A stretch of 64,000 bases of DNA from Sulfitobacter sp. DFL-14 (GTDB lineage Bacteria > Pseudomonadota > Alphaproteobacteria > Rhodobacterales > Rhodobacteraceae). Below the pieces are notes generated by a model that worked only from the letters and a program-made list of their open reading frames with translations, was not told where the DNA came from and did not search any database. The translations under genes were made by a program, and so were the position numbers. Below, in pieces: positions 20,271 to 42,112 of the stretch (position 1 is its first letter; each line of letters opens with the position of its first letter). The stretch spans positions 1-64,000 of the forward strand of contig NZ_QBFD01000015.1 of the NCBI RefSeq assembly GCF_003335585.1, in the 5' to 3' direction.

Positions 20271-20320
20271 CAATTTTGACGTAAGCGCGGCGAAGGCCGC
20301 AACACACAAGGGAGAGTAAG

Positions 20321-21367: not shown

Positions 21368-21375
21368 CAATGTAA

Positions 21376-21406: not shown

Positions 21407-21442
21407 ATTCCGTCACCCGCGCGCCCCGGAGGGAAGATCACC

Positions 21443-27509: not shown

Positions 27510-29018
27510 TTACCCGGCGCCGGGCTTGCTGCGCATGCTCCGCGTCGCCCGAATGCCGGCACGGATGATCGCGGCAACGGTGAGCAGGGTCAGGAACCAG
27601 AAGAACCAGGTGATCGGACCCCGGAACAGGATTTCAGGGGAATTGCCGGACATCAGCATCGCCTGGCGGAAATTGTTCTCCAGCAGCGGGCCGAGGATAA
27701 AGGCGATCAGGAAGGGGGCCGCAGGAATGTCGTTGCGCAGCATCACGTATCCGACCCACCCCATCACGAACATCACCCCGACATCAAAGATGTTGTTGTT
27801 CACCGCGAAGACCCCGTAGATGCACAGCACCAGCACACCGGGAAACAGCACACCGCGCGGGATGTCGGCCACGTATTTGAAAAGCCTGATTGCCAGCGAG
27901 CCGATGAAGAACAGAAAGAAGGAACTGACGATCAGCCCGATGAACAGGCCGTAGATCAGATCCTTGTTCAGCACGAACATCATGGGACCGGGCTGCAACC
28001 CGTGGATCATGAATGCACCGATGATGATTGCGGTGATGACGTCGCCCGGCACCCCAAGTGCCAGCAAGGGGATCAGCGTGGCCCCTGCCACACCGTTGTT
28101 GCCGGCTTCGGATGCGGCCACGCCTTCCACCTCACCTTTGCCGAAGTTCGCCTTGTTCGGCGATTTCCGGCGCGCCTCGCTGTAGGAGAGGAAGGCAGCC
28201 GGGGCCGCGCCGATCCCCGGAATGGACCCCAGAAAGACACCGATGAAACTGCCGCGCACGATGGTCCGGAAGCACCGTTTGTATTCGCCGAAGGTGACGG
28301 AATCACTGCCCAGCCCGCGCGCCTTGCCTTCGTGTGGCTTCGGGTCCCAGACCATCGACATCACCTCGGGCATCGCGAAGAGCCCGATCAGGACAGCGAT
28401 GAAATTCAACCCGCCCATCAGGTTCGGATCGCCGAAAGTGAGCCGGTTCGTACCATAGACCAGGTCAAGACCGACAGTCGCCAGCAGCAGCCCCAGCATT
28501 GCCGACAGCGCCCCCTTGAGCAGGCTGTTGCCCGACACCCCCGCGATGATTGTCAGCGAGAACAGGATCAGCGTGAAGAATTCCGGCGGGCCGAAGTTGA
28601 GCGCGAAGGAGGCGAGCCAGCCCGCAAAGAGGATCAGCGACAGATTGGAGATCAGATCTGCCGTGCAGGATGCCCAGAGCGCCATGCCGAGCGCCTTTCC
28701 CGCCTGCCCCTTTTCGGCCATCGGATAGCCGTCCAGCACAGTGGCGCTGGAGGCAGGCGTACCGGGCGTCTTGATCAGGATCGCGGGAATGCAACCGCCA
28801 AAGATGCCCCCCTTGTAGACACCCAGCAGCAGAAGGATCGCCGGAACCGCCTCCATCGCGAAGGTGAAGGGCAGCGTCAGCGCAACCGCCATCGTGGCTG
28901 ACATGCCCGGAATCGCCCCGGCGATGGTGCCGATCAACACACCGACAAACAGCGCTGCGAAGGCTTCGAAATTGCCGACCAGCGACAGGCCTGCAGCGAT
29001 ACTGTCGAGAAAACTCAT
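27510..29018 (-). CDS. tripartite tricarboxylate transporter large permease (TctA family)
   Basis: The 502-residue inner-membrane protein has about 12 helices and TctA signatures: GTIAGAIPGMSATMAVALTLP near residue 30, GIYKGGIFGGCIPAILIKTPGTPAS-type sequence around residue 68-90, and SEAGNNGVAGATLIPLLALGVPGD near 320. It forms the channel for a carboxylate captured by the TctC protein. It overlaps the TctB gene (ATGA). Confidence 0.94.
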   Translation of the reverse strand: MSFLDSIAAGLSLVGNFEAFAALFVGVLIGTIAGAIPGMSATMAVALTLPFTFAMEAVPAILLLLGVYKGGIFGGCIPAILIKTPGTPASSATVLDGYPMAEKGQAGKALGMALWASCTADLISNLSLILFAGWLASFALNFGPPEFFTLILFSLTIIAGVSGNSLLKGALSAMLGLLLATVGLDLVYGTNRLTFGDPNLMGGLNFIAVLIGLFAMPEVMSMVWDPKPHEGKARGLGSDSVTFGEYKRCFRTIVRGSFIGVFLGSIPGIGAAPAAFLSYSEARRKSPNKANFGKGEVEGVAASEAGNNGVAGATLIPLLALGVPGDVITAIIIGAFMIHGLQPGPMMFVLNKDLIYGLFIGLIVSSFFLFFIGSLAIRLFKYVADIPRGVLFPGVLVLCIYGVFAVNNNIFDVGVMFVMGWVGYVMLRNDIPAAPFLIAFILGPLLENNFRQAMLMSGNSPEILFRGPITWFFWFLTLLTVAAIIRAGIRATRSMRSKPGAG

Positions 29019-29497
29019 GGCAATCTCACGTAATTGCCCTGCGGGATCGCAACGCTCGCGACATGGGCGAAGAATCCGTAAAGCACCAGTGGCACGGTGA
29101 TGGCGCAGATGATCGCGGCCCTGGGATGGGAGGTCCGGATCAGGAATGCTGTCGCTGCGAAAATCAGCATCGAGGTCCAGACCATGCCGAGGCGCGGCAG
29201 GGCGAACATGGTCAGCGTCATGATTGCCGCCAGGATGCCCAGCCGCCCGTAGCCGCCGGAGATGGCTGGCTGTTCCGGCTCAACCGGGTCTGTGGTGAAA
29301 AAGCCCGTGACAACCAGACCCAGCCCGATCAGCACTGTCAGCCCGCTGAGAATATAGGGCCAGAACAGCGGCGAAAGCACGATATTGCGCACGTTGCTGG
29401 GAGAGGAAACCCATGTCGGTATGATCGCGAACATCAGGACCGCAGCCACGATGATGCTTGCGATTCCGATCAGGGATTGTCGCTTGATGCGCTGCAT
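29015..29497 (-). CDS. tripartite tricarboxylate transporter small permease (TctB family)
   Basis: The 160-residue protein has four hydrophobic segments (SLIGIASIIVAAVLMFAII, LSPLFWPYILSGLTVLIG, RLGILAAIMTLTMFALP and a C-terminal one), matching TctB. I chose ATG 29497; a TTG seven codons upstream is the alternative. It lies between the TctC and TctA genes, with a stem-loop separating it from TctC. Confidence 0.88.
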   Translation of the reverse strand: MQRIKRQSLIGIASIIVAAVLMFAIIPTWVSSPSNVRNIVLSPLFWPYILSGLTVLIGLGLVVTGFFTTDPVEPEQPAISGGYGRLGILAAIMTLTMFALPRLGMVWTSMLIFAATAFLIRTSHPRAAIICAITVPLVLYGFFAHVASVAIPQGNYVRLP

Positions 29498-29525
29498 GTC
29501 CAACCGAGCCCCGTGCAAAGAAAAG

Positions 29526-29549
29526 GGCGCACGAATGGCTTCGTGCGCC
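29526..29549 (-). terminator. intrinsic terminator/attenuator between tctC-like and tctB-like genes
   Basis: A perfect 10-bp stem (GGCGCACGAA / TTCGTGCGCC) with a 4-nt loop, followed on the minus strand by CTTTTCTTT. It lies 14 bp past the binding-protein stop, before the permease genes, in the same arrangement as in the TRAP operon. Confidence 0.85.
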
Positions 29550-29563
29550 GGTTCGGTTCAGGT

Positions 29564-30538
29564 TTACCCTTCGATCCGCATGCCGAGGCGATCCACCAGA
29601 TCCTTGAACGTGTTGTACTGGGTGCGGATGAAATCATTGGCTTCTTCCGGGCTCATCACGTCGATGATCGAACCGACCGCTTCCATGCGCGAAACGAATT
29701 CTTCGTCCCCCGCTGCGGCCTGCATCCATTCGCCCCACTTCGCCGCGACTTCATCGGGCAGGTCCTTGGGACCGGCAATGCCTGTCCAACCCACAAGCTG
29801 TTCCAGCTCCGGCTTGCCAAGGTCAGCCGCTGTCGGGGCGTCAAAGCCCACGACCGGCTCCGATGTGGTGACCATCAGCGGCTTGAGCTGACCATTGGAG
29901 ACAAAGCTCGCCAAGGCAGAGGAGTTTGTGCACAGGAAGGTCGCCGTCCCCGCCAGCACGGCTGTCGCCGCGGCACCGCCACCGTCCATCGGGATATGCG
30001 TCACCTGGTTGAGCGGGTCCTCGACGCCGAAGGCGTCCATCACCATGACCCCGCCCAGGTGCAGGCCGGAGCCAACGCCGGAGGAGGAGAAGCTGACCCC
30101 GCCCTCGCGCGCCCTGGCGACAAGATCATCCATCGAATTGATGTCTGAATCGGCGGCAACCGCACAGGCAAAGGGGTTGATCTCGTAGACGGTCACATAG
30201 CGGAAATCGTCCAGCGTGTAGGGGAGTGTCGCCTTCATCGCCGGGTTGACCGAATGCGACCCGACGCGGGTGAACAGCATCGTGTAGCCATCCGGCTTGG
30301 CGTTCATCGCGGCGACCGACCCGGTGGCGCCACCGGCCCCGGTCACATTCGCCATGATCAGCGGCTTGCCGACAACCTTGCCAAGCGGCTCTGCTATCGT
30401 GCGCGCCGAAATGTCTGTCGCACCGCCCGCACCGAACGGGATGATCATGTTGACAGGACGCTCAGGATATTCCGCCGCTGCTGCCGTCGCGAGCCCAAAC
30501 ACGAGGGCGCCGACCGCACCGAATTTTGCAAATTTCAT
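29564..30538 (-). CDS. tripartite tricarboxylate transporter solute-binding protein (TctC/Bug family)
   Basis: The 324-residue periplasmic protein has a signal peptide (MKFAKFGAVGALVFGLATAAAA) and Bug-family motifs: YPERPVNMIIPFGAGGATDI and the GAGGATGSVAAMNAKPDGYT loop that holds the substrate carboxylate. Bug proteins bind carboxylates such as citrate, tartrate, malonate or terephthalate. The linked catabolic genes point to a dicarboxylate. It diverges from a LysR gene that probably controls it. Confidence 0.92.
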   Translation of the reverse strand: MKFAKFGAVGALVFGLATAAAAEYPERPVNMIIPFGAGGATDISARTIAEPLGKVVGKPLIMANVTGAGGATGSVAAMNAKPDGYTMLFTRVGSHSVNPAMKATLPYTLDDFRYVTVYEINPFACAVAADSDINSMDDLVARAREGGVSFSSSGVGSGLHLGGVMVMDAFGVEDPLNQVTHIPMDGGGAAATAVLAGTATFLCTNSSALASFVSNGQLKPLMVTTSEPVVGFDAPTAADLGKPELEQLVGWTGIAGPKDLPDEVAAKWGEWMQAAAGDEEFVSRMEAVGSIIDVMSPEEANDFIRTQYNTFKDLVDRLGMRIEG

Positions 30539-30700: not shown

Positions 30701-31612
30701 ATGTCCATCAGAATGTTTCGCACCCTGATCGCCGTGGCCGATCACGGCACGTTCAGTGCGGCGGGTGAGGCCGTGTTCATCACCCATGCCGCTGTCAGCC
30801 AGCAGATGAAGGCGCTGGAGGCGCAATGGGACATTGCCCTGTTCGACCGCACCCGGCGCACGCCGGAACTGACCCCTGTCGGTCGCTCCATCGTTGCCCG
30901 TGTCCGGGAGATCGTGGCGGCCTATGACAACCTGCTGCCCTCCGTCCTGGGCGATGACGGGCTGCGGGGAAACCTGTCGCTTGGCAGTGTGCCGACGGGG
31001 CTGACCAGTTTGATCCCCTTCGCCATAACATCCATCAAGGCCCGTTTTCCCGAACTGCACATCGGTGTCACGCCCGGTCAGACCAAGGAACTGGTCGTGG
31101 AACTGGAGCGCGGCATATTGGACGCCGCTGTCGTGACCAAGCCGCATGTGATCCCGCGCAACATGGTCTGGGCCCCGATCGCCGAAGAACCGATGCAGCT
31201 TGTGACTTCCTTGAATGTCACCTCCGAAGACCCCTTCGAGATTCTGGCCACGCATCCCTACATCCGCTTCACCCGCAAGGCGCTGCTGAGCGACATCATC
31301 GACAATTGGCTGCAGATGAACCGAATCGCGGTGAAAGACACAATGGAGCTGGAAAACCTCGAAAACATTTCGAGCATGGTGCATGCCGATCTTGGCGTAT
31401 CCATCGTGCCGCGCCGGTGCGTTCAGCCGCCCAATCCGCTGCCGCTCAGGTACATCCCTCTTGGCAGCGACGCGCCGGTGCGCGAACTGGGACTGTTGTC
31501 GCTGGCAAACACGGTCAAGTTGCGGGTCCTTCAGGAAGTCGAGGCCGAGCTTCTGAATGCTGTCCGCGTCGGTGTTTTCGATCCCTTTCCGGCCGGTGTA
31601 GCGGCACCATGA
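30701..31612 (+). CDS. LysR-family transcriptional regulator
   Basis: The 303-residue protein has the LysR helix-turn-helix at the N terminus (SIRMFRTLIAVADHGTFSAAGEAVFITHAAVSQQMKALE region, residues 2-40) and a periplasmic-binding-like effector domain. LysR proteins usually activate a divergent operon in response to a pathway intermediate; here the divergent gene is tctC and the downstream genes are TauE and a racemase-family enzyme. The start at 30701 is chosen over TTG 30677. Stop overlaps the TauE start as ATGA. Confidence 0.9.
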   Translation: MSIRMFRTLIAVADHGTFSAAGEAVFITHAAVSQQMKALEAQWDIALFDRTRRTPELTPVGRSIVARVREIVAAYDNLLPSVLGDDGLRGNLSLGSVPTGLTSLIPFAITSIKARFPELHIGVTPGQTKELVVELERGILDAAVVTKPHVIPRNMVWAPIAEEPMQLVTSLNVTSEDPFEILATHPYIRFTRKALLSDIIDNWLQMNRIAVKDTMELENLENISSMVHADLGVSIVPRRCVQPPNPLPLRYIPLGSDAPVRELGLLSLANTVKLRVLQEVEAELLNAVRVGVFDPFPAGVAAP

Positions 31613-32355
31613 GCCTGTATTTCTTTGTTATCCTCGCCCTTGGCGCCGCAGCAGGCGGGTTCATGAACGGGCTGGCCGGGTTTGGCACCGCGCTTTTTGC
31701 GCTGGGATTCTGGCTGCAGATCATGCCACCGGCCCAGGCGGTGGCCATCGTCGTGGTCATGTCGGTGGTGGCGGGATTGCAGGGCGTCTGGCTGGTCCGC
31801 AGGTCGATCACGGATCACCCGCGCCGGCTGGCGCGTTTCCTGCTGCCTGCGCTGATCGGCGTGCCGCTCGGGGTGGCGATGCTGTCGATGCTCGAACCCG
31901 ACATGCTTCGCCTGATCATTGCGGGTTTTCTGATCCTTTATGGCGGGTTCTTCACGCTGCGCTCTTCCCTGCCCCGGCTGGAGCGCCCGACCCCGGTGGT
32001 CGACGTGCTGGTGGGCTTTTTCGGCGGCATCCTGGGCGGTGCCGCATCCCTTTCCGGTGCCCTGCCGACCATGTGGTGCGCCATGCGCCCCTGGCCAAAG
32101 GCCGAGACCCGCGCGGTCCTGCAGCCCTTCAACGTCTGCGTGCTGGCGCTCGCGGCAATCGTGTTTGCCCTCAAGGGGACCTACACGACCCAGACGATCA
32201 TTTATGGCGCGGTGGCCCTGCCGACGACGATGATCTTCGCACAGATCGGCATCGCGGTTTTCAAACGCCTAACCGACAACCAGTTCCGTCGCCTGCTGAT
32301 TGCGATGATGCTGGTGTCGGGGCTGATCCTGATGGCAAGAGTGGTGATCGGATGA
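31609..32355 (+). CDS. TauE/SafE (TSUP) family membrane transporter
   Basis: The 248-residue protein has seven to eight membrane helices in two related halves, with the TSUP motif GFMNGLAGFGTALFAL in the first and GGILGGAASLSGALPTMW in the second. Members move sulfite, sulfoacetate, 2-thiouracil-like or organic anions across the inner membrane. No sulfonate-cleaving gene is nearby, so a carboxylate or pathway by-product is as likely as sulfite. It is sandwiched by ATGA overlaps between the LysR gene and the racemase-like gene. Confidence 0.86.
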   Translation: MSLYFFVILALGAAAGGFMNGLAGFGTALFALGFWLQIMPPAQAVAIVVVMSVVAGLQGVWLVRRSITDHPRRLARFLLPALIGVPLGVAMLSMLEPDMLRLIIAGFLILYGGFFTLRSSLPRLERPTPVVDVLVGFFGGILGGAASLSGALPTMWCAMRPWPKAETRAVLQPFNVCVLALAAIVFALKGTYTTQTIIYGAVALPTTMIFAQIGIAVFKRLTDNQFRRLLIAMMLVSGLILMARVVIG

Positions 32356-33491
32356 CCTGCCTTATCGAACGCGTCGAAGTTTTCTGTTACCGGGTTCCCG
32401 TGAAGGTGCCCGTCGCAACCTCCTTTGGCGTGATGCGGGACCGACCCGCCGTCTTTGTCAAACTGACAGACAGCACCGGATGCCATGGCTGGGGCGAAAT
32501 TTTCGCGAACTGGCCTGCCGCCGCCGCGGAACACCGGGCGCAGCTGCTTGTGCAGGACATCTGCGATCTGGTGGTCGGCGCAAATGTCGCCACGGCCGGC
32601 GCGCTGTTCGAAAGCCTGACCGCGCAAACCCACATCCGCGCCTTGCAATCGGGCGAATGGGGGCCGTTCCGGCAGGTGATCGCCGGGCTGGACATCGCCC
32701 TGCATGACATCTTCGCGCGCCATCAGGGTGTGCCTCTGGCGCAATTCCTCGATGGTGGCGCGGCCGCAGAGGTGCCGACCTACGCCAGCGGCATCGCCAT
32801 CGGCGCGGCGGCGGAGCTGATTGCCAGATCCCGCGCGGTGGGTCACAGCGCCTTCAAGGTGAAGATCGGCTTTGACGGCGCGCGCGATATCGACGCCTTG
32901 CGCGCCCTTGCGGACGACCTGGATGATGGCGAGCGCCTGATGGCCGACGTCAACCAGGCCTGGACCGTCACGGAGGCGCTGTCTCATGCGGCTGCAATAG
33001 ATGCGCTGGGGCTGCAATGGCTCGAAGAACCGATCCGCGCCGATCTGCCCGCCGGTGATTGGCAAGCACTGGCAGATGGCTTTGCCACGCCCCTGGCCGC
33101 GGGCGAGAACATCACCGGCAACAGCGGGTTCGAGACCGCCATCGCTGCCGGTCATATCTCTGTGGTGCAGCCGGATATCGTGAAATGGGGCGGGATCAGC
33201 GGCTGCCGGGCGGCAGCGCAGCGGACAAGGGACGCCGGGCTGCGCTATTGTCCGCATTTCCTGGGCGGCGGGATTGGCCTGATCGCTTCGGCCCATCTTC
33301 TGGCGGCTGTCGGAGGCGACGGCTTGCTGGAGGTGGACGTGAACCCCAACCCGCTTCGCGATGCCTTTGAGGGCGCGCGGCTGCGCGATGACGGCAATTT
33401 CACCATTGGCACGGCACCGGGGCTTGGCATCGACGCCTTGCCAGCGGAACTGTCGCAATACCAAACCTTATCGCTTGAGCGGCGGGCTTAG
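32352..33491 (+). CDS. mandelate racemase/muconate lactonizing enzyme-family protein
   Basis: The 379-residue enolase-superfamily enzyme has a full mandelate-racemase-type active site: K169-V-K171 on one face, metal ligands D199, E225 and E252, and the D275...H302 dyad (QPDIVKWGG and CPHFLGGGIG). Members abstract the alpha-proton of a carboxylate, giving racemases, epimerases, or acid-sugar dehydratases. KxK plus the Asp-His dyad allows either enantiomer to be used. The cluster's dicarboxylate theme fits a tartrate-, malate- or methylmalate-like substrate. Its 3' end overlaps the convergent fumarase beta gene by 4 bp. Confidence 0.87.
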   Translation: MTCLIERVEVFCYRVPVKVPVATSFGVMRDRPAVFVKLTDSTGCHGWGEIFANWPAAAAEHRAQLLVQDICDLVVGANVATAGALFESLTAQTHIRALQSGEWGPFRQVIAGLDIALHDIFARHQGVPLAQFLDGGAAAEVPTYASGIAIGAAAELIARSRAVGHSAFKVKIGFDGARDIDALRALADDLDDGERLMADVNQAWTVTEALSHAAAIDALGLQWLEEPIRADLPAGDWQALADGFATPLAAGENITGNSGFETAIAAGHISVVQPDIVKWGGISGCRAAAQRTRDAGLRYCPHFLGGGIGLIASAHLLAAVGGDGLLEVDVNPNPLRDAFEGARLRDDGNFTIGTAPGLGIDALPAELSQYQTLSLERRA

Positions 33492-34153
33492 ATCACCTCG
33501 TCCGACCGATCATCCGTCTCACCATAGCGTTTCAGCGTGGCCGGGCGGGTGCCCTCGTAGATCTTGTCGAAGTTCTGCGAGATCTTCGCATTCTCCCGCT
33601 CGAACAGGCAATCGCCGTGCTTGTCCGAGGCAACGATGAAGGGCCCCATCTCCTTGCACCTGATGACCCACATGGCCTGGGCGAGGCCCAGTTCCTCGTT
33701 CCAATGGACGGCCTCGACATTCTCGACCCCGCGGCCCAGCAGGGCACCGGTGCCGTAGCCGACCGTGGACAGGTAGATCGCACCGTTGGGAACGAAGTAG
33801 GACTTGTAGTCCTTCGACGACATCCCGCCCTTGCCGATGATCAGCTTGGCACCCGATTTTTCCATCCATTCCGGCAGCCATTTGGAAAAGCGGAAGGAGG
33901 CGGTGGCGGTCACCGCGCCCATCTCGAAACTGCCGTCGGCGTTGATCCGGGCGGCGGGCGAACAGTGAAAGTTCGCAGCCGAATCGCGCGGCAGTTCCAT
34001 CGGGATGTTGGCCTTTTCCTCCAGCGCGCGTTTGTAGACGCCTTCGCGGGCGGTATACATCAGCCCGTCCAGATAGACGATGTCGCCCAGTTGCAGGTCA
34101 TCCAGCGCTTCTTGCGTGGGCGTGGTGCTCAGGCGGATCTTACGTGGGCTCAT
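33488..34153 (-). CDS. class I fumarase-type hydratase, beta subunit
   Basis: The 221-residue protein matches the C-terminal (beta) domain of iron-sulfur fumarases and tartrate dehydratases: LGDIVYLDGLMYTAREG, the GAVTATASFRFSKW segment, LIIGKGGMSSKD and VPNGAIYLSTVGYGTGAL. It pairs with the alpha subunit at 35276-36235. Known substrates of two-subunit members include fumarate/malate, mesaconate/citramalate and L-tartrate. It is the last gene of the seven-gene operon and overlaps the CoA-transferase gene by 14 bp. Confidence 0.9.
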   Translation of the reverse strand: MSPRKIRLSTTPTQEALDDLQLGDIVYLDGLMYTAREGVYKRALEEKANIPMELPRDSAANFHCSPAARINADGSFEMGAVTATASFRFSKWLPEWMEKSGAKLIIGKGGMSSKDYKSYFVPNGAIYLSTVGYGTGALLGRGVENVEAVHWNEELGLAQAMWVIRCKEMGPFIVASDKHGDCLFERENAKISQNFDKIYEGTRPATLKRYGETDDRSDEVI

Positions 34154-35279
34154 GACGGGCCTCCGGTGTCAGGATTTCGGTTGTGTCGCGGCCAAAGGTC
34201 GGCGCGGGATCAAGCCGCGCAGCTGCCCAGGGCGCGCGGAAACTCAGGCCGGGGGCGCGGACCGTCATGCCGAGTTCAGGCACCGGCAGATCGTGCCAGC
34301 AGGGCGAGGCCTGCATCTGCGGATGCGCCAGCGCCGCGCCAAGGTCAAGCACCGGCCCGGCGGGCACATCAGCCTGCGCCAGCAGCGTATCCCAATGCGC
34401 GACACTGTCCTTGGCGAACAGCTCCGCCAGCGCCTGTGCCACCGCCGCTTCATCGGCCTGCGCCAAATCGGGTTGCCCCAATGCGGCGCACAGCCTGCGG
34501 GTCTGGGCGGGTGTGTTCGCCGTGACAACTAGCTGCCCGTCCTTGCAATCGAAACGCCCCGAGAACGGCGAATCCGAAAAGGCCCGGTTGCCATCCAGAC
34601 CGCGCAGGGCACCGGTGGTCTGGTGATTGATCGCGTAGGCCCCCATCAGGTTGGTCATGGCGTCCAGCATGGACACCGACAATTCCTGCGGCACCCCCGG
34701 CGCTTTTGCACGTTGCAGAAGCCCCGCCAGAACAGCGGCGATCAGCGATTGGCCTGCGACATAGTCCACGATGGGGATGCCAACACGAAGCGGGCCGCTG
34801 CCTTGGGTCCCTGTCATCGCCATCAGCCCGCTGATGCCCTGCAGGATATGATCATAGGCCGGTCGCGATGCCAGCGGGCCGTCGGGGCCATAGCCCGACA
34901 GGCTGGCATAGATCAGATCGCCCTTGCGCGCGGTCGCCGCCTCGAACCCCAGGCCCAGTCGTTCGGCCACGCCGGGGCGGAAGTTCTGCACCAGCACGTC
35001 CGCACGTTCGACAAGCGACAGCGCCGCCGCAAGCCCCGCATCGGTCTTGAGGTCCAGCACCACGGATTTCTTGCCCGCGTTCTGGCTGAGAAAGGAGGCC
35101 CCGAGACCTGCTGTCCGCATTTCGGCCGTCCCACCGTGACCGCGCACGAAATCGTCACCGCCGGGCCGCTCCACCCGGATCACCTCTGCCCCCATCAGGG
35201 CAAGCTGGCCGGTTGCATAAGGGCCGGCAAGCACATGGGTCAGATCGAGAACCGTGATGCCCGCAAGCGGCCCTGTCAT
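34140..35279 (-). CDS. CaiB/BaiF-family (class III) CoA transferase
   Basis: The 379-residue protein starts MTGPLAGITVLDLTHVLAGPYA and has the family segments GAEVIRVERPGGDD, SFLSQNAGKKSVVLDLK, RADVLVQNFRPGVAERLGLG and YASLSGYGPDGPLASRPAYD. The family moves CoA between acids by a ping-pong-free mechanism with an active-site Asp; relatives act on mesaconate, itaconate, succinate, formate/oxalate and carnitine. The longer frame to 35477 is antisense-like extension into the alpha subunit and is rejected. It sits between the two fumarase subunits with ATGA and 14-bp overlaps, an odd place that argues for a shared substrate. Confidence 0.9.
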   Translation of the reverse strand: MTGPLAGITVLDLTHVLAGPYATGQLALMGAEVIRVERPGGDDFVRGHGGTAEMRTAGLGASFLSQNAGKKSVVLDLKTDAGLAAALSLVERADVLVQNFRPGVAERLGLGFEAATARKGDLIYASLSGYGPDGPLASRPAYDHILQGISGLMAMTGTQGSGPLRVGIPIVDYVAGQSLIAAVLAGLLQRAKAPGVPQELSVSMLDAMTNLMGAYAINHQTTGALRGLDGNRAFSDSPFSGRFDCKDGQLVVTANTPAQTRRLCAALGQPDLAQADEAAVAQALAELFAKDSVAHWDTLLAQADVPAGPVLDLGAALAHPQMQASPCWHDLPVPELGMTVRAPGLSFRAPWAAARLDPAPTFGRDTTEILTPEARHEPT

Positions 35280-36235
35280 TCCGCAGCCTCCATCGCCGGG
35301 GCGTCCCATTCCACGGTTTCGCGGCGCTGATAGTCGGTGAACCAATCGGGATCGGTGCGGTATTCCACCCGCCCGTCGGGGAACACGCGGGCAACGGCCC
35401 GGCGTGACGACAGGCAGAAGGCGTGTACCGACATCTGCATCCCGCCGGTGTGGCAATAGCCCACCTCGATATTGCAATCGACGACCATGGATTTGCCGAC
35501 GAAACCCATCGCCCCCATGCCGATGGAATTGCCCAGCTCCTTGAACTCCCGCTCCAGCTGGGCGATTTTCGGATCGGAGTTTTCGCTGCCGACCGTGCGC
35601 AGGCAGGCGGCACGCTTACCCAGCACCATGCAGGTATCCTTGCAGCCGCCCAGCCCGATGCCGATGATCGCAGGCTGGCAGGCCAGCCCCCGTTTGCCAA
35701 AGGCAATGAGGCTATCGAGGTAGAACCGCCTGATCCCCTCGATCCCGTCGGAGGGGAAAAGCATCCGGTAATCGGTGCCGAACAGCCCGCCCTTGTGGAC
35801 GGTGATCAGGTCGATCCACTCGCCGCCCGGTTCATAGCCGTATTCGATCTCGGGCGCGCCAATGCCGACGTTGTTGTTGTGATCGGTGCGCCACAGGGGA
35901 TGGACCCGGTTGGGCCGCAGCGGCACGCCGTTGGTCGCATTCGCCGTGGCGCGGCGCAGCGCCGCCTCCAGCGCGATGGGTCCGCCCTCGATCCGGGTGT
36001 CGTTGCCCATCTTGACGTACCAGCGTGGTGTGCCGGTATCGCCACACATCGCGCGGCGGTCCTCCTTTGCGGCCTCATAATTCTCAAGCATCGCCTGCAG
36101 CACGAAAGACGACAGGTCGCCGTCCTCCACATCGGCGGCGGCCTGCAGACCGTCGAGGTAATCCTGCGGAATTTCGATGGCGGCCTTGTCCATCAGGGTT
36201 TCCGCGGTCTTCTGGATGATGTCTATCGGGATCAT
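35276..36235 (-). CDS. class I fumarase-type hydratase, alpha subunit
   Basis: The 319-residue protein matches the Fe-S (alpha) domain of two-subunit fumarase, mesaconase or tartrate dehydratase. Likely cluster ligands are C64 (AMCGDTGTP) and C198 (GLGGCKD), with a third among the later cysteines. Other conserved stretches are NRVHPLWRTDHNNNVG and IGMGAMGFVGKSMV. The [4Fe-4S] cluster binds the hydroxyl and carboxylate of the substrate. Its start overlaps the flavoprotein stop (ATGA). The sequence alone does not separate fumarate, mesaconate and tartrate specificity. Confidence 0.9.
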   Translation of the reverse strand: MIPIDIIQKTAETLMDKAAIEIPQDYLDGLQAAADVEDGDLSSFVLQAMLENYEAAKEDRRAMCGDTGTPRWYVKMGNDTRIEGGPIALEAALRRATANATNGVPLRPNRVHPLWRTDHNNNVGIGAPEIEYGYEPGGEWIDLITVHKGGLFGTDYRMLFPSDGIEGIRRFYLDSLIAFGKRGLACQPAIIGIGLGGCKDTCMVLGKRAACLRTVGSENSDPKIAQLEREFKELGNSIGMGAMGFVGKSMVVDCNIEVGYCHTGGMQMSVHAFCLSSRRAVARVFPDGRVEYRTDPDWFTDYQRRETVEWDAPAMEAAE

Positions 36236-37986
36236 TCGGCAGCCTCCACCAGGGATAGGGGTTCGTTTTCGGGCAATATCGTCTCGCCCGGTTTGACGAT
36301 CGTGAATTGTACCGCCTCACGGCTGACATCAAGCGTGCCGCCTGTCTGCCGCGCCACGGTGAAATAGCTGCTCTCCATCGCGCCGCTGTCGGGAAAATCT
36401 TCGCGGAAATGTGCGCCGCGCGAGTTTTCCCGTGCCAGCCCCGCTTTCGCGATGACCTCCGACACTTCGCAGAGCGAGGCCATGTTCAGCCAGTCATGCC
36501 AGGTCAAATTGAAGGCCAGGTTGTCACCCGCCACGCCGGCCTGCAACAGCGCGTCGTGGATATCCGCGATCCGGGTCAATCCGCGCGCCAGGCCGGTTTG
36601 CGTCCGCATGACGCCCACGTCCTCCCACATTGCGTCCTGCAGCTTGTCACGCAAGGGCTGGATCGGGGCGACCTTGTTCGACAGGGGCCGCAGCGCGCGG
36701 GCGATTTCTGCCTCCAGCACCGTCTCGTCCGGATCACGGAGCGCGCCCATGCGCCGGATGTCCGCCCCCATCACATCGCCCGCAACGCCACCGTAGACCG
36801 TGGAATTTGCCACGCCGTTACCACCGAGGCGGTTGGAGCCATGCGCACCCCCCGCGTCCTCGCCCGCGACGTAAAGCCCCTCCATCGCCGTGCGCGTGTC
36901 GGGGTCGACCACGACGCCGCCCATGAAGTAATGCGCGGTCGGCACCACCTCCACCTTGCCGGCGGCCAGATCGAAACCGCTGTCGGCGCAGCGCTTGACC
37001 ATCCCGGGAAATTTCGCGCGCACGTTTTCGGGGCCAAGGTGCGCCATGGAGATATAGACGCCGCCGTGTTCGCTGGTGTTCGACTTGCGCATCTCGGCAA
37101 AGATGCCACGGCTGACCACGTCGCGCGTGGCCCGCTCGCCCTTGGGGTCGTAGTCGAACATGAAGCGGTTCTCGGCCCCGTTGAGCAATTGCCCCCCCGC
37201 CCCGCGCAGCCCTTCTTCCAGCACCGTGCCGGTCATCTTGGTGTGGTCTCCGGCCAGCAGGCCGGTGGGGTGGAATTGCACCATCTCCATGTCCCGCAGG
37301 GGCAGGCCCAGGCGCAGGGCCATGGCAAGACCATCCATCGTCTTGTCCCCGCTGGGGGTGTGGTACTTGTACATGGTCGGCCCGCCGCCGGTGCCCATCA
37401 TCACGGTCTTGGCCCGCACGAAGCGGAACTTGCCGCTGCGCATGTCGATCATCAGAACCCCGGCCAGCGCGCTGCCGTCCGTCGTCGGGATCAGACCAAT
37501 GGCCCGATGTTCCTGCAACTTCTCCACCGGGCGGGACAGGACCTGCTCCATCAGCCGGTTGATGATCTCGATCCCCGTGAGGTCGCCCTTGTGCACGGTG
37601 CGGTCCGCCGTCTGCCCGGCAAAGGCCTTCTGGTGCAGCGACCCGTCCGGGTTGCGGTCGAAGAAACAACCGATCTCGTTCTCCAGCTCGCGGATCCGCA
37701 CCACCGCCTGTTCGCAAAGCTTCCAGGCCATATCCTGATTGGGCAGCCATTTGCCGCCGTTGATCGTGTCCATGAAGTGCCGCTCAACGGTATCGCCACC
37801 GCCCAGCGCCACGTTGTAGCCGCCCTGCACCATGCGGGTGCATCCGCATTTCCCGATCAGGCCCTTCACCGCGATTGTGATCTTTGTCCCCGGCGGGGCG
37901 CTTTGCTGGGCGTGCAGGGCGGCGAACATGCCCGCGCCGCCCGTGCCCAGGATGAGGATATCGGTATCATGTCTCTCGATCTGCAT
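36232..37986 (-). CDS. succinate dehydrogenase/fumarate reductase-like flavoprotein subunit
   Basis: The 584-residue FAD protein starts with a dinucleotide fold (DILILGTGGAGMFAALHA). Dicarboxylate-site elements of SdhA/FrdA are kept: VLEEGLRGAGG, RATRDVVSRGI, HYFMGGVVVD and GSNRLGGNGVANSTVYGG. The histidine that carries covalent FAD in standard SdhA (RSHTVAAQGG type) corresponds to C49 here, in KCGCTRMVQGG, so FAD is probably not bound in the usual covalent way. It should oxidise a succinate-like acid or reduce a fumarate-like one. TGATG and ATGA overlaps bind it to both neighbours. Start ATG 37986. Confidence 0.88.
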   Translation of the reverse strand: MQIERHDTDILILGTGGAGMFAALHAQQSAPPGTKITIAVKGLIGKCGCTRMVQGGYNVALGGGDTVERHFMDTINGGKWLPNQDMAWKLCEQAVVRIRELENEIGCFFDRNPDGSLHQKAFAGQTADRTVHKGDLTGIEIINRLMEQVLSRPVEKLQEHRAIGLIPTTDGSALAGVLMIDMRSGKFRFVRAKTVMMGTGGGPTMYKYHTPSGDKTMDGLAMALRLGLPLRDMEMVQFHPTGLLAGDHTKMTGTVLEEGLRGAGGQLLNGAENRFMFDYDPKGERATRDVVSRGIFAEMRKSNTSEHGGVYISMAHLGPENVRAKFPGMVKRCADSGFDLAAGKVEVVPTAHYFMGGVVVDPDTRTAMEGLYVAGEDAGGAHGSNRLGGNGVANSTVYGGVAGDVMGADIRRMGALRDPDETVLEAEIARALRPLSNKVAPIQPLRDKLQDAMWEDVGVMRTQTGLARGLTRIADIHDALLQAGVAGDNLAFNLTWHDWLNMASLCEVSEVIAKAGLARENSRGAHFREDFPDSGAMESSYFTVARQTGGTLDVSREAVQFTIVKPGETILPENEPLSLVEAAE

Positions 37987-38327
37987 CAGATGGCCCTCAT
38001 CAGAAAAACGCCCGCGATCAGGGTCGATGCGGCAACCGCACCGGCGGCGGCGGTCTTCTGGCCCGATGTCCAGGGCAGCCATTCCAGCGCCATCAGGCGC
38101 AGGCCGCCGAACAGATGCGCGGCCAGCAGGAAAACCAGACCGAACTCGGCGAATTTGACAATGCCCATCTCGCTCCAGCGCAGGAACCCGTCGAGGTGTT
38201 CCGGCTGGTTCAGCGCATAGGACAGCACCCAGAAATGCACCGGCAGGAACAATGCCAGCGCCACACCGGACAGGCGGTGCAACAGGTAGGCGACCCAAAG
38301 GGTATGGTTCCGGTAGCCGCGCCTCAT
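37986..38327 (-). CDS. membrane anchor subunit (SdhC-like cytochrome b) of SDH-like complex
   Basis: The 113-residue protein has three transmembrane helices. YLLHRLSGVALALFLPVHFW resembles the His-Arg-x-Ser/Thr-Gly helix of SdhC, and AAHLFGGLRLMALEW resembles the heme-ligand helix HxxxGxRHL. It should anchor the complex, bind quinone and perhaps heme b. It overlaps its neighbours on both sides: start within the preceding gene's ATGA, stop in TGATG with the flavoprotein gene. Confidence 0.83.
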   Translation of the reverse strand: MRRGYRNHTLWVAYLLHRLSGVALALFLPVHFWVLSYALNQPEHLDGFLRWSEMGIVKFAEFGLVFLLAAHLFGGLRLMALEWLPWTSGQKTAAAGAVAASTLIAGVFLMRAI

Positions 38328-38653
38328 CTCGCCGTCACCCCGTGAACAGCCAGCATGCCAAGGACCAGCAGCAGGGCGAAAATGGCCCAGGCCGCCGCAT
38401 TCAGGGTGCCGCCCCGCAGGCCCATCCATTCCGACAATACCGTGCGCAGGCCAATCGCCCCATGCACGGACACGGCGGCGACAAATGTGCCATAGACGGC
38501 GAACCAAAGGATGCTGCCTTTCGTGCGGCCAAGGATTTCGGCGGCAGACAGCCCGCCCTGGATGGCATAGATCATCACACCGATATGCAGCAGCACCAGC
38601 GGCGCCATGATCAGCGCCGAAATCCGCTGCGCCATATAAAGACCGAGCGTCAT
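38324..38653 (-). CDS. membrane anchor subunit (SdhD-like) of SDH-like complex
   Basis: The 109-residue hydrophobic protein has three helices; MAQRISALIMAPLVLLHIGV and VSVHGAIGLRTVLSEW carry the conserved His and Arg positions of SDH/FRD anchor subunits. It lies between the Fe-S gene (TGATG overlap) and the SdhC-like gene (ATGA overlap). Such small anchors diverge fast; identification rests on topology and position. Confidence 0.8.
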   Translation of the reverse strand: MTLGLYMAQRISALIMAPLVLLHIGVMIYAIQGGLSAAEILGRTKGSILWFAVYGTFVAAVSVHGAIGLRTVLSEWMGLRGGTLNAAAWAIFALLLVLGMLAVHGVTAR

Positions 38654-39387
38654 CAGGAGCGCCTCTTGAAGAAATTGCGCGCGGTCTCGCGCTTCAGGCC
38701 GGCGATGGCGTTCATCGGGTTCAACGCATTCGGACAATGCACCGCGCAGCTGCCCTGGCTGTGGCAATTGTGGCAACCGCCAACACCCGACACCGCGTCC
38801 AGCACCGCCTGTTTGTCCGCGTTCTTGCTGTCGTTGTAGACGCTCCAGGCCCGTTGCAATGCGGCGGGGCCGAGGAAATCGGGATTGTTCGCCACCGTAT
38901 CGCAGGCGGCGTAGCAGACCGAACAATTGATGCATTCGATGCCCGCCGCACTCTCGACCCGCGCCTCCGCCGCAGGGTCGAGTGCCTCGATCGGGTCGTT
39001 GCGTGTCAGGGTCGGGTGGTGGACCCCTTCCGCCGCGACCCATTTGTCGAAGAAAGGGTCCATATCGGTGGCCAGATCCTTGATCACCGGAAGGTTGCGC
39101 AGCGGCGCGATTTGCATATGGCCGTCCACCAGCACTTTCTTGACATGGGTCCGGCAGGTCCAGCGCGGCGTGCCGTTCACCATCATCGCACAGGAACCGC
39201 ACATGCCTACGCGACAGGCGTAACGATAGCTCAGGGTCGGGTCGGCGTATTGCTGGATCCAGGCGACCACATCCAGCACGGTCTGGTTGTCCTCGACCTT
39301 CACTTCAAAGGGCTGAAAGGACCCCACGGCGTCGCCACGCCAGACCGAGACAGACATATGGGTTTCATTGGCCAAGCGTCTCTCCAT
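38653..39387 (-). CDS. iron-sulfur subunit (SdhB/FrdB-like) of SDH-like complex
   Basis: The 244-residue protein has an N-terminal ferredoxin domain binding [2Fe-2S] through C58, C63, C66 and C78. The C-terminal domain has two cluster motifs: C152-x2-C155-x2-C158-x3-C162, and C205, C208, C214, C218 (CHSQGSCAVHCPNALNP). In the first, the usual Pro after the last Cys is Asp. It passes electrons from the flavoprotein to the quinone site. It is the first gene of the operon; the order B-D-C-A differs from the common sdhCDAB. An ATG at 39357 is an alternative start; neither has a clear ribosome site. Confidence 0.9.
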   Translation of the reverse strand: MERRLANETHMSVSVWRGDAVGSFQPFEVKVEDNQTVLDVVAWIQQYADPTLSYRYACRVGMCGSCAMMVNGTPRWTCRTHVKKVLVDGHMQIAPLRNLPVIKDLATDMDPFFDKWVAAEGVHHPTLTRNDPIEALDPAAEARVESAAGIECINCSVCYAACDTVANNPDFLGPAALQRAWSVYNDSKNADKQAVLDAVSGVGGCHNCHSQGSCAVHCPNALNPMNAIAGLKRETARNFFKRRS

Positions 39388-39543: not shown

Positions 39544-39687
39544 ATGCTGACGCTGTACGACGCCGGGGAAACGGCCGCATCACCCGTCCATATCGCTGCG
39601 GTCGGCGGCGGCCTTTCCGGGCATAATGGCGCAGCGCGCGCTGATGGCGACACACCCTGCTGTGCAACCGGTGCTGACGTCTCATGA
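39544..39687 (+). CDS. small ORF upstream of nitroreductase, unknown or decayed
   Basis: A 47-codon frame (MLTLYDAGETAASPVHIAAV...) has a strong GGAGG site 7 bp upstream and overlaps the nitroreductase start as ATGA. I recognise no family. In another frame the 3' half reads MAQRALMATHPAVQPVLTS, which looks more protein-like, so this may be a frameshifted remnant of a longer gene or simply a leader that carries the ribosome-loading site for the nitroreductase. Confidence 0.35.
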   Translation: MLTLYDAGETAASPVHIAAVGGGLSGHNGAARADGDTPCCATGADVS

Positions 39688-40511
39688 GTGACCGCCTGTC
39701 TGCTCTCCTCGTCGCGCGCTTTTCCGATGCGCGGCAGGCCCCTGCGGAGCTGGAGCGGGTTTCATCCCTGCAGGCCATTGCCGGACGGGGCTCTTGCCGG
39801 TCGTTCGAACCCGATCCGGTCCCCCTCGATACGCTCAGAACGCTCGGCGCAATCGCCCTCGCCTCGCCCTCGAAAAGCGACCTGCAACAGCGCGACATCG
39901 TGATCGTCGATGATGCGGAACAGAAGTCACGGCTGCTGGATCTTGTCTCTGACCAGGCGTGGACGGGGCAGGTGCCCTCGCTTGTGGTCTTCTGTGCCAA
40001 CAACCGCCGCCAGCGTCACCTGCATGAGATGCAGGGGCTCGACTTTGCCAACGATCATCTCGACGCGTTCTTCAACGCCAGTGTGGATGCGGGCATCGCG
40101 CTGGCAAGTTTCGTCGTCGCAGCGGAGGCGGCGGGCCTCGGCTGTTGCCCGATCAGCACGATCCGCAACCGCGCGGCAGAGGCAAGCGATATTCTGGGGC
40201 TGCCGGACCACGTTTTTCCCGTTGCCGCGCTGGCCATCGGCCGGCCGGCTGTTGCCCCCCGGATCAGCCCCCGCCTGCCCCTGCGGGCGACGCTTCACCT
40301 GGACCGTTTCAACGAGACGACAACCGCAGACATCGCGGCCTACGACGCGGAGCGCGCCGCCGTGCAACCCTATGCAAATCAGCGCCGCACCGACCTTTAC
40401 GGCACCAGCGACCGCTACACATGGTCAATGGACAAGGCCCGTCAATACAGCCTGCCGGAACGGAAAGGCTTCGCGCAGTTCATCCGCAGCAAGGGCTTCC
40501 GCCTTGATTAA
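39684..40511 (+). CDS. nitroreductase-family (FMN) oxidoreductase
   Basis: The 275-residue protein has the nitroreductase start motif RGSCRSFEPDPVPLDTLR, with the FMN-phosphate Arg and Ser, and FVVAAEAAGLGCCPISTIRN, the central helix and loop of NfsA/FRP-type enzymes. The flavin is probably reduced by NAD(P)H. The substrate is unknown; the SDH-like operon diverges from it. The stop overlaps the convergent TPP-enzyme gene. Confidence 0.85.
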   Translation: MSDRLSALLVARFSDARQAPAELERVSSLQAIAGRGSCRSFEPDPVPLDTLRTLGAIALASPSKSDLQQRDIVIVDDAEQKSRLLDLVSDQAWTGQVPSLVVFCANNRRQRHLHEMQGLDFANDHLDAFFNASVDAGIALASFVVAAEAAGLGCCPISTIRNRAAEASDILGLPDHVFPVAALAIGRPAVAPRISPRLPLRATLHLDRFNETTTADIAAYDAERAAVQPYANQRRTDLYGTSDRYTWSMDKARQYSLPERKGFAQFIRSKGFRLD

Positions 40512-42112
40512 TGCGCAGCGCCGCTTGGGGCGGGCAGGCCCTCGATCAGCACGTTGACACAAGCGGGTTTGCCGCTTTGCACCGCACGCGCCAGCGCCTC
40601 GTCAAGCCCGGCAAGCTCTGTCACATATTCCCCGTGCGCGCCAAGCCCCCTGGCGGCCAGATCATAGCGCGCCCGGCTGAGCCCGCAGCCGATCAGCCGT
40701 TCGGGGCCGTAATCGCGCAGCTGGATCTGATGTTCGGCGTTCCAGCGTTCGTCATTGCCGATCACCGCGACAAAAGGCAGCCTCGCGCGCGCTGCCGTCT
40801 CGAACTCGGCAAAGTGGAAACCAACCGTGCCGTCCCCCATCAGCGCAAAGATCGCCGCATCCGGCGCCGCAGCGCGGGCGCCCAGAGCATAGCACAGCCC
40901 GCCCCCGATCGCCCCGGAAATCCCGTTGATCACCCGGCGATCCGCCCGCGTGGCGGCCTGCGCCCACTGGCCGAACTCACCACCATCACAGATCAGCACG
41001 GCCTGCGCCGCCCTGTCGATCTGCCGCTGCACGGCGGCGCATAATTGTGCAGGTGTGATCCGCCCCGAGGGCACCATGTCGGCGGTGCTGAACCCGCGCC
41101 GTCCCAGATGCGCCGCCACATCGGCCCGCCACTGGTCGTGCCCCCCCTGCCCGGCCTCGATCAGAACACCGAGACTGTCACGGGGATCAGCGGCGAAACA
41201 GGCGGCCAGCCGATTGCCAAGATTGCGATGCGCCCGGTCCCGCTCTGCCGTGCTGGCCTGAACAACCATCCAGCGGCAATCGGTATGGAACGCCGCCGCG
41301 CCGCCAAACCCGAGGGTAAAGTCGATCCGCTTGCCCAAGGCAACGACAAGGTCGGCCTGCCCCAACGCCTTGCCGATATCGCCAAGCGCCGGGTCCTTCA
41401 GGCCGCGCGGGCTTTCCATCACCACAACGGCCGCGCCAAGGGCCGCTTCCAGCGCCGCCAGCCTGCCCGGATTGCGTGTGGCATTCATCGCGGGGCCACA
41501 GATGATCAAGGGCCGCGCCGCTCCGGCGACGGCCGCCGCAATCGCCGCCGCATCGGAGACCGACAAACCCATCGGCTCTTTCGTGACCGCGTGGGGCACA
41601 TCGACATCGCCCACATCCGCCTCGACCAGGTCAAAGGGCAACGCCATATGCACCGGCCCCGACCGCCCCGAAAGCGCAACCCGCAAGGCACGCGCCGTCT
41701 CAACGCCGAAATCCGCCGCGCGGATCGGACGGAACGACAGCTTGGTCACCGGCGCTGTCATCGGCACCTGGTCAAGCTCCTGGAAAGCGCCTTTGCCATC
41801 CTGACCGATGGGAGAATCGCCGGTCAGCAGCAGCACCGGCGTCTCTGATTCAGAGCAGGTGAACAGCGGCCCCAGCGCATTCGCCGCCCCTGCCCCCGCG
41901 GTCACCAGGGCCACGCCCACAGTTCCGGTCAGCTGCGCATAGGCCTCCGCCATGAACACCGCCGCCGCCTCGTGACGGGTATGGACAATCTCTATCCCGG
42001 CATCGAAACAGGCGTCGAAGATCGGCATGATCTGGTTGCCCGACAGCGCGAAGATGCGGGTGATACCGGCGGATGCCAGCGTTCTTACCAATAGATCTGC
42101 ACCGCGCATCAT
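40508..42112 (-). CDS. thiamine diphosphate-dependent enzyme, acetolactate synthase large-subunit-like
   Basis: The 534-residue protein has the three domains of the acetolactate-synthase/oxalyl-CoA-decarboxylase family: the PYR domain with catalytic Glu in HTRHEAAAVFMAEAYA, a central domain, and the PP domain with the TPP motif MGDGTVGFHFAEFETA ending in VIGNDERWN. GGGAGAGAG lies just before ATG 42112; a TTG at 42133 is the other possible start. No ilvN small subunit adjoins, so it is unlikely to be the main acetolactate synthase; a decarboxylase or carboligase of a keto acid or of an acyl-CoA made by the neighbouring operon is possible. Confidence 0.82.
   Translation of the reverse strand: MMRGADLLVRTLASAGITRIFALSGNQIMPIFDACFDAGIEIVHTRHEAAAVFMAEAYAQLTGTVGVALVTAGAGAANALGPLFTCSESETPVLLLTGDSPIGQDGKGAFQELDQVPMTAPVTKLSFRPIRAADFGVETARALRVALSGRSGPVHMALPFDLVEADVGDVDVPHAVTKEPMGLSVSDAAAIAAAVAGAARPLIICGPAMNATRNPGRLAALEAALGAAVVVMESPRGLKDPALGDIGKALGQADLVVALGKRIDFTLGFGGAAAFHTDCRWMVVQASTAERDRAHRNLGNRLAACFAADPRDSLGVLIEAGQGGHDQWRADVAAHLGRRGFSTADMVPSGRITPAQLCAAVQRQIDRAAQAVLICDGGEFGQWAQAATRADRRVINGISGAIGGGLCYALGARAAAPDAAIFALMGDGTVGFHFAEFETAARARLPFVAVIGNDERWNAEHQIQLRDYGPERLIGCGLSRARYDLAARGLGAHGEYVTELAGLDEALARAVQSGKPACVNVLIEGLPAPSGAAH

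Follow-up and report, generated by a model that had tools for sequence, protein, structure and literature searches.

A succinate dehydrogenase- and fumarase-like operon of Sulfitobacter sp. DFL-14 as a probable sulfonate-degrading module

Sulfitobacter sp. DFL-14 carries seven overlapping minus-strand genes that resemble a piece of the tricarboxylic acid (TCA) cycle: a succinate dehydrogenase (SDH)-like complex, a split class I fumarase-like hydratase and a CaiB coenzyme A (CoA) transferase. Which succinate analogue do these enzymes process, and what becomes of it? We investigated the operon (33488–39387) within a window of 64,000 bp, bases 1–64000 of contig NZ_QBFD01000015.1 in the 5.7-Mb host genome, and compared it with its relatives. 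The original prediction had envisaged one shared substrate and, as an example, a route from methylsuccinate through mesaconate to citramalyl-CoA. The relatives speak against that route, as sulfite dehydrogenase and exporter genes are coupled to their hydratase, and the operon family very probably works on a sulfonate and frees sulfite. For the full route that we favor, in which 3-sulfopropanoate is the substrate and desulfonation is direct, we put the probability at roughly 0.5. Gene content, the sulfite-gene coupling seen in relatives and the divergent active sites are what we observed; the substrate, the carbon that takes up the hydroxyl group and every catalytic step are inferred.

Operon layout and divergence from the host's central enzymes

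The seven genes run from 39387 to 33488 without a gap. Their order and their complete overlap, as first described, were confirmed by the open reading frames, the sequence and Pfam. The junctions, in the order listed here, are TGATG, ATGA, TGATG, ATGA, ATGA and a 14-bp overlap.

38653..39387, minus strand: iron-sulfur (Fe-S) subunit, SdhB-like; three Fe-S cysteine motifs, Pfam Fer2_3/Fer4_17
38324..38653, minus strand: membrane anchor, SdhD-like; Sdh_cyt 35.8 bits, TIGR02968 28.4 bits (cut-off 41.8)
37986..38327, minus strand: membrane anchor, SdhC-like; Sdh_cyt 42.4 bits, TIGR02970 53.0 bits (cut-off 52.3)
36232..37986, minus strand: flavoprotein, SdhA-like, proposed 3-sulfopropanoate dehydrogenase; FAD_binding_2/Succ_DH_flav_C
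35276..36235, minus strand: class I hydratase alpha, proposed 3-sulfoacrylate hydratase; Fumerase 218 bits
34140..35279, minus strand: CaiB/family III CoA transferase, accessory insertion; CoA_transf_3
33488..34153, minus strand: class I hydratase beta; Fumerase_C 76 bits

All seven genes match their Pfam families. The operon contains a complete complex II layout (flavoprotein, three-cluster Fe-S subunit and membrane anchors), and both class I fumarase domains, Fumerase and Fumerase_C, exceed their Pfam cut-offs. With the NCBIfam equivalog models, the SdhC-like anchor is the sole core subunit to pass an SDH cut-off (TIGR02970, by less than 1 bit), and the SdhD-like anchor, the flavoprotein, the Fe-S subunit and the hydratase subunits reach no SDH, fumarase or tartrate dehydratase equivalog. 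The flavoprotein scores 325 bits against TIGR01816 (cut-off 727), compared with 893 bits for the canonical SdhA of the host; the hydratase subunits reach 192 of 276 bits with PRK06246 and 131 of 264 bits with PRK08228. The canonical SdhA lies on another contig and is 35% identical to the operon flavoprotein; the host also has an L-aspartate oxidase. In a scan for the class I domains, the operon alpha and beta subunits are the only Fumerase and Fumerase_C matches in the host genome. Judged by sequence, the operon is distinct from the host's TCA set, and the earlier view that these genes are not plain duplicates of central enzymes holds on identity, on equivalog scores and on the active sites.

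The cysteines of the three SdhB motifs are invariant in 84 of 84 homologues. In the flavoprotein, the histidine that links flavin adenine dinucleotide (FAD) is replaced by cysteine (GCT) in 86 of 86 homologues, compared with SHTVAAQGG in the host SdhA, so the FAD is probably bound non-covalently. Using FrdA numbering, which we take to be equivalent here, the position of Thr244 holds a glutamate, and a loop inserted before it carries lysine or arginine, both in all 86; the equivalents of His232, Arg287, His355 and Arg390 are kept. In the hydratase alpha subunit, the CQDTG motif, whose Gln-Asp pair we take to be Gln134-Asp135 of Leishmania fumarase, reads CGDTG in 85 and CADTG in 2 of 87 sequences. 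The glutamine is present in 30/30 control class I fumarases, a set drawn from the top 30 by score among 113 matching genomes and made up almost entirely of single-chain enzymes. Relative to 7xky, PNVVHP has become PNRVHP, with an extra arginine, in 87/87. In the beta subunit, the motif R-E-G-[V/I]-Y occurs in 70/70 aligned sequences; the window copy has AREGVY in place of the ARDxAH type. The Asp of the DTG motif (alpha) and the equivalents of Thr, Arg and Lys (beta) are retained. Five gammaproteobacterial-type copies carry the same active-site signature. Room for a bulkier group together with added positive charge would fit a sulfonate substrate.

Conservation of the operon and its sulfite-handling neighbors

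Within the host's family, 18 of 149 genomes, host included, encode the alpha subunit (E ≤ 1e-20), 17 of them at 80–100% identity and one at 30%. It also occurs on 12 of 72,556 plasmid records, five of which are predicted to be conjugative, and in 5 of 369 genomes of a gammaproteobacterial-type sample, whose class was taken from kinship. A contig scan added at least 529 relatives among genome contigs, and a plasmid copy in Sulfitobacter sp. THAF37 is 98% identical. The patchy spread, the plasmid locations and the near identity to THAF37 suggest that the operon moves by horizontal transfer.

We compared 87 loci (numbered with an L), namely the window, six plasmid loci (L020–L025, of the 12 plasmid hits) and the best 80 of the at least 529 genome relatives. 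Some of the loci are near-duplicates (two Paracoccus versutus, two P. onubensis), and those shorter than 18 kb number 24. The six core genes (SdhB-D-C-A, hydratase alpha-beta) are present in all 63 loci of at least 18 kb and in 81/87 overall, and because this order recurs in many genomes it is not a product of chance. The beta subunit is present in 84/87 loci; two of the remaining three end within 130 bp of alpha, and the third, L080, ends 1.27 kb past alpha, with CaiB behind alpha. The expectation that the same gene order exists elsewhere thus stands for the core. It fails for the CoA transferase, which separates the two hydratase subunits in just 9 of 84 loci (L026, L027, L028, L034, L039, L060, L067, L095 and the window). 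In the THAF37 plasmid copy, the gap from alpha to beta is 27 bp and holds no gene. These two observations argue that it is an accessory insertion and no guide to the pathway. We therefore rejected it as a core step, and its position no longer speaks for a substrate shared with the hydratase, as had been proposed.

What does accompany the core? A same-strand gene starts between -450 and +300 bp from beta in 33 of 84 loci, and in 26 it starts within 60 bp. Twenty of these 26 tightly coupled genes are of sulfite type: nine SorA-like sulfite dehydrogenases, seven YeiH exporters and four TauE-type permeases. The other six comprise two amidohydrolase-family genes and one each of MmsA, a thiamine pyrophosphate (TPP) enzyme, a NIPSNAP protein and an unassigned gene. 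The SorA-like genes start -4 to +53 bp from the beta stop (9 loci) and the YeiH genes at -4 or -1 bp (7 loci); several downstream genes share their first 4 bp or 1 bp with the beta stop. One representative of each type was scanned. The SorA-like protein scored 167 of 600 bits with the NCBIfam SorA model and carries Pfam Oxidored_molyb and Mo-co_dimer, and YeiH scored 133 of 233 bits with TIGR00698 and 228 bits with PF03601. YeiH or SorA occurs anywhere in the locus in 19/87, or in 21 when the SoxC-type genes of L024 and L088 are counted. A small NIPSNAP-family protein lies beside the operon in 13/87 loci (e.g., L021, 13654–13968), often behind YeiH.

As a matched control, we compared up to 20 kb around the operon with up to 20 kb around canonical sdhA in 15 operon genomes, three of the operon stretches being only 14–17 kb long and bounded by contig ends. 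YeiH was found at three operon loci and SorA at three, together 6/15, against 0/15 at canonical sdh, where neither gave a match above 20 bits. The TauE subfamily typical of the operon (265–408 bits, with model and threshold derived from the operon loci themselves) was found at 9/15 operon loci and 0/15 controls. At the level of the family, sulfite genes are thus genetically coupled to the pathway genes (20/26; 6/15 versus 0/15). In 10 of the 15 genomes (L153–L167), however, canonical sdhA has a TauE gene of another subfamily (24–52 bits) no more than about 10 kb away. TauE/SafE proximity was rejected as the sole sulfite evidence for this reason, and the weight is placed on the coupling of SorA and YeiH because TauE alone is weak evidence.

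Some loci lie in larger sulfur-related surroundings. On plasmid pTAV3 of P. versutus, the 35 kb after the operon hold YeiH, NIPSNAP, TauE, an Ldh-family gene whose best model is L-sulfolactate dehydrogenase (204 of 500 bits), a hydroxyacid dehydrogenase and a Tct transporter. These are joined by a trio of alcohol dehydrogenase, short-chain dehydrogenase/reductase and histidinol-dehydrogenase-like genes, a UxaA pair, a second YeiH-type gene and a sulfite oxidase. The region reads as a sulfonate island. From the gene orders we take the trio to be hpsNOP-like, for 2,3-dihydroxypropane-1-sulfonate (DHPS), and the pair to be suyAB-like; the models used give other names. A plasmid copy in Methylobacterium nodulans has a sulfite dehydrogenase with cytochrome c, a sulfate exporter family gene and TauE. 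SsuA-like ATP-binding cassette transporters (82 bits, cut-off 163.5) occur in 10/87 loci. In addition to the 87 counted loci, we inspected Sulfitobacter S190, P. seriniphilus and P. ferrooxidans (L152); in the last, YeiH, NIPSNAP and TauE follow the operon. On the S190 plasmid, aconitase X and DUF126 genes (L151, 3453–5098) adjoin the operon.

A 3-sulfinopropanoyl-CoA desulfinase-like gene lies near the operon in L020 (635 bits, cut-off 600), L026, L027 and L072. It hints at linked sulfinate metabolism, in which a CoA transferase is perhaps relevant.

Proposed route and its alternatives

Together, the six core genes would make up a module for sulfonate breakdown that descends from part of the TCA cycle. 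In the favored route, the SdhABCD-like complex would oxidize 3-sulfopropanoate, the most likely substrate, to 3-sulfoacrylate and deliver the electrons to quinone. The split Fe-S class I hydratase would then add water, with the hydroxyl group going onto the sulfonated carbon. An alpha-hydroxysulfonate is the bisulfite adduct of an aldehyde and decomposes; the product here, 3-hydroxy-3-sulfopropanoate, would yield sulfite and malonate semialdehyde. MmsA acts on malonate semialdehyde and would turn it into acetyl-CoA and CO2, and the sulfite would be oxidized (SorA-like) or exported (YeiH, TauE/SafE). In Pseudomonas sp. MPC6, the MmsA gene (695 bits) starts 1 bp inside the beta stop; in Cupriavidus P-10 it is 1.3 kb away from the operon, on the opposite strand. 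MmsA is encoded in 16/17 operon genomes, host included. In line with the earlier proposal, which is supported in this respect, one succinate analogue would pass first through a membrane-bound SDH-like enzyme and then through a split class I hydratase.

Two succinate analogues fit, 3-sulfopropanoate, with a sulfonate in place of one carboxylate, and sulfosuccinate. Linked genes favor 3-sulfopropanoate, because succinate semialdehyde dehydrogenase (SSADH)-like, alcohol dehydrogenase and aminotransferase genes fit a conversion of 3-hydroxypropanesulfonate or homotaurine through 3-sulfopropanal to 3-sulfopropanoate. SSADH-like aldehyde dehydrogenases occur in 8/87 loci and zinc alcohol dehydrogenases also in 8/87, with both in three (L043, L051, L099); an omega-aminotransferase occurs in 5/87. 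Sulfosuccinate is the less likely substrate, though the main rival. The SDH-like complex would convert it to sulfofumarate, the hydratase would place the hydroxyl on the sulfonated carbon, and collapse would give oxaloacetate and sulfite. The same sulfite-gene evidence applies, both carboxylates of succinate are kept, which suits the tricarboxylate-type transporter (TctA in 39/87 loci), and no further enzyme is needed, in keeping with the 67/87 loci that have no alcohol or aldehyde dehydrogenase, aminotransferase or MmsA gene. The enolase-superfamily gene (17/87) could serve as a racemase. However, with sulfosuccinate there would be nothing for the SSADH-like enzyme, alcohol dehydrogenase, aminotransferase and MmsA to do at the loci that encode them. 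The substrate may vary across the operon family.

Quick and others reportedly described sulfosuccinate desulfonation by Pseudomonas in 1994, and Mayer and Cook are said to have described homotaurine metabolism in Cupriavidus necator in 2009. In the open literature, with subscription literature and theses outside the search, we found no mention of sulfoacrylate hydratase or sulfopropionate/sulfopropanoate dehydrogenase, nor of sulfofumarate or sulfosuccinate dehydrogenase. Desulfonation of sulfosuccinate to sulfite was likewise not found there. Given that scope, the missing sulfofumarate, sulfosuccinate dehydrogenase and sulfosuccinate desulfonation count weakly against sulfosuccinate. Papers that combine sulfosuccinate biodegradation with sulfonate gene clusters are, by title and opening of the abstract, not about such a pathway.

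Water could instead be added to the other carbon of 3-sulfoacrylate, giving 3-sulfolactate for desulfonation by SuyAB or by a sulfopyruvate/Xsc route. We consider this improbable, although a Konstanz thesis, cited in the excerpted text of PMC11489063, has Roseovarius nubinhibens convert homotaurine through 3-sulfopropionate and sulfoacrylate to sulfolactate, not malonate semialdehyde. Sulfolactate-type genes also adjoin the operon in P. versutus, and Xsc is encoded in 14/17 operon genomes, host included. Homologues of the pTAV3 SuyB-like protein, however, are found in only 6/17 operon genomes (82–89% identity), and the host has none at E ≤ 1e-60; this query is named from its island, its best model being galactarate dehydratase (124 of 731 bits). 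Two genomes, G047 and G107, have neither a SuyB-like protein nor Xsc, yet carry YeiH at the operon (L177 and L170). For these reasons direct sulfite release appears to be the more general reading, and sulfolactate via SuyAB is weakened as a general exit. In addition, the sulfite genes are coupled to the hydratase itself, and MmsA is coupled in Pseudomonas.

Beyond the thesis, several observations weigh against direct release of sulfite from 3-sulfopropanoate by this operon. How a glutamate in place of the FrdA Thr would help to bind an anion is not obvious, and loss of the FAD-linking histidine usually lowers succinate oxidation. Alcohol dehydrogenase, aldehyde dehydrogenase, aminotransferase or MmsA genes are linked in 20/87 loci only, and MmsA in 2/87. 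No same-strand gene lies between -450 and +300 bp behind beta in 51/84 loci, window included. The window operon has neither SorA nor YeiH nearby, only a TauE/SafE gene of the broad PF01925 permeases, and the host genome has no close SorA homologue. The SorA type is encoded in 5/17 operon genomes (63–69% identity), at the operon in three and on another contig in two. All of these sulfite genes are missing from L173, L178, L179 and L182, four of the 15 matched operon loci; no sulfite gene is annotated within 10 kb in Sulfitobacter S190, whose gene table is incomplete, and YeiH lies 7 kb from the operon in P. seriniphilus. Four readable gammaproteobacterial-type loci (the fifth is 4.6 kb) have no SorA, YeiH or operon-type TauE; in one of them, L148, the same strand continues downstream with a Liv-type transporter and a member of the tartrate dehydrogenase family (537 bits against a cut-off of 470).

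These gammaproteobacterial-type loci also suit a carbon-only route, for example methylsuccinate to mesaconate to citramalate with activation by CaiB, in which the sulfite genes would be chance neighbors. The chemistry of the families agrees with such a route, and CaiB matches the succinate-glutarate CoA transferase model (201 bits, cut-off 750) and the succinyl-CoA:mesaconate CoA transferase model (184 bits, cut-off 700). It is nevertheless very improbable in our view, given the rarity of CaiB between the subunits, the 20 sulfite-type genes among the 26 coupled ones and the 0/15 YeiH or SorA matches in the controls. Among neighbors identified by annotation or family scan, we found no citramalyl-CoA or malyl-CoA lyase; minor clusters were partly identified in that set, and the host genome was not searched. 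The itaconate/methylsuccinate cluster of PMC12290011 shares the branched C5 dicarboxylate chemistry of the original prediction. As described in the available part of that paper, it differs from the operon in using an acyl-CoA dehydrogenase, an MmgE/PrpD isomerase and an itaconate CoA transferase. Together with the accessory CaiB and the sulfite-gene coupling, these different enzymes led us to judge the methylsuccinate route unlikely.

More broadly, and tentatively, the favored route can be extended into a sulfo-isosteric copy of a TCA segment, a possibility that we rate somewhat short of even. Starting with 2-oxo-4-sulfobutanoate, homotaurine or 3-hydroxypropanesulfonate, a TPP-dependent 2-oxoacid decarboxylase and an SSADH-like enzyme would supply 3-sulfopropanoate. 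The SDH homologue, holding its FAD non-covalently, would oxidize this to 3-sulfoacrylate, and the class I fumarase homologue would desulfonate the product through water addition at the sulfonated carbon.

Relation to known systems and other genes of the window

The operon enzyme shares with complex II (SDH/fumarate reductase) the four-subunit layout, the Fe-S motifs, the FAD and C-terminal domains and the Sdh_cyt anchors. It differs in the Cys for the FAD-linking His, the Glu for Thr244, the Lys/Arg loop and the sub-cut-off scores of flavoprotein and Fe-S subunit. The hydratase likewise resembles the split alpha-beta class I fumarases and L-tartrate dehydratases in both domain families and in the key Asp, Thr, Arg and Lys. 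It is set apart by C[G/A]DTG, PNRVHP, AREGVY and its sub-cut-off equivalog scores. With SuyAB and Xsc desulfonation, the proposed route would have in common sulfite as the end product and sulfite dehydrogenase or exporter genes alongside, and a suyAB-like pair lies near on pTAV3. Unlike those systems, the operon contains neither SuyAB nor Xsc, and its desulfonation would consist of water addition and collapse of an alpha-hydroxysulfonate.

The HpfXYZ and homotaurine routes, in the excerpted text of PMC11489063, form 3-sulfopropionate as a byproduct and are a proposed source of substrate, whereas the operon would consume it. The same excerpts describe the 3-sulfopropionaldehyde dehydrogenase of C. 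necator as a homologue of 4-aminobutyrate-pathway enzymes. They also state that, one thesis on a single aerobe aside, there was no earlier report of bacteria degrading 3-sulfopropionate and 3-hydroxypropanesulfonate, and that 3-sulfopropionate is an electron acceptor for Bilophila wadsworthia, by a route given there as unknown. In their available parts, PMC11489063, PMC12890257, PMC11659671 and PMC12330013 cover how 3-sulfopropionate arises and that B. wadsworthia uses it, without a known mechanism, and only PMC11489063 mentions an aerobic route, taken from the thesis.

Anaerobes, gut bacteria included, make 3-sulfopropionate and 3-hydroxypropanesulfonate from sulfoquinovose and DHPS. The operon offers a concrete and testable gene set for an aerobic 3-sulfopropionate sink in many marine and soil bacteria, in genes whose annotation gives a probable sulfonate pathway the names "succinate dehydrogenase" and "fumarate hydratase." If the favored route is correct, it would provide an aerobic sink for sulfonate derived from plant and algal sulfolipid, and its Fe-S hydratase would represent a new class of desulfonating enzyme and a new way to cut the C-S bond of a sulfonate. 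Should sulfosuccinate prove to be the substrate, the operon would account for how a surfactant head group is degraded.

The genes flanking the operon in the window are as follows.

27510-29018, minus strand: TctA; clusters with annotated Tct genes of locus L020; TctA in 39/87 loci
29015-29497, minus strand: TctB; named by place and order
29564-30538, minus strand: TctC; clusters with annotated Tct genes of locus L020
30713..31612, plus strand: LysR-type regulator; clusters with annotated LysR genes; 66/87 loci
31609..32355, plus strand: TauE/SafE permease, proposed sulfite or sulfonate permease; PF01925 115 bits; same subfamily in 62/87 loci
32352..33491, plus strand: enolase-superfamily (mandelate racemase/muconate-lactonizing enzyme, MR/MLE) gene, accessory; convergent with hydratase beta; 17/87 loci
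39684..40511, plus strand: nitroreductase-family protein, accessory; PF00881; 21/87 loci
40508..42112, minus strand: TPP-dependent enzyme (acetolactate synthase/2-hydroxyacyl-CoA lyase-like), accessory; 24/87 loci

The tripartite tricarboxylate-type transporter TctABC (27510..30538) is proposed to take up the substrate under LysR control, and the CoA transferase, enolase-superfamily, nitroreductase and TPP genes would be accessory. The stops of the enolase-superfamily gene and hydratase beta overlap convergently by 4 bp, and this neighbor order recurs in several loci. The TPP gene, present for example in L033, is also linked in L149 and follows an SSADH-like gene in L061; it perhaps encodes an upstream 2-oxoacid decarboxylase that feeds the pathway. 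We rejected its identification as Xsc, since it scores 161 bits in L050 and 152 in the window against a cut-off of 676.

A full-scoring Xsc (913 bits, 224747–226480) is encoded on the same contig outside the window, with a TauE-family gene (227670–228347) 1.2 kb downstream, and the host probably uses sulfonates by this second route too. Finally, translations read by eye suggest a sugar-acid-catabolism-like block at 15998–23256 of the window, with a tripartite ATP-independent periplasmic (TRAP)-type transporter and IlvD/Edd-like, hydroxyisobutyrate-dehydrogenase-like and isomerase-like genes.

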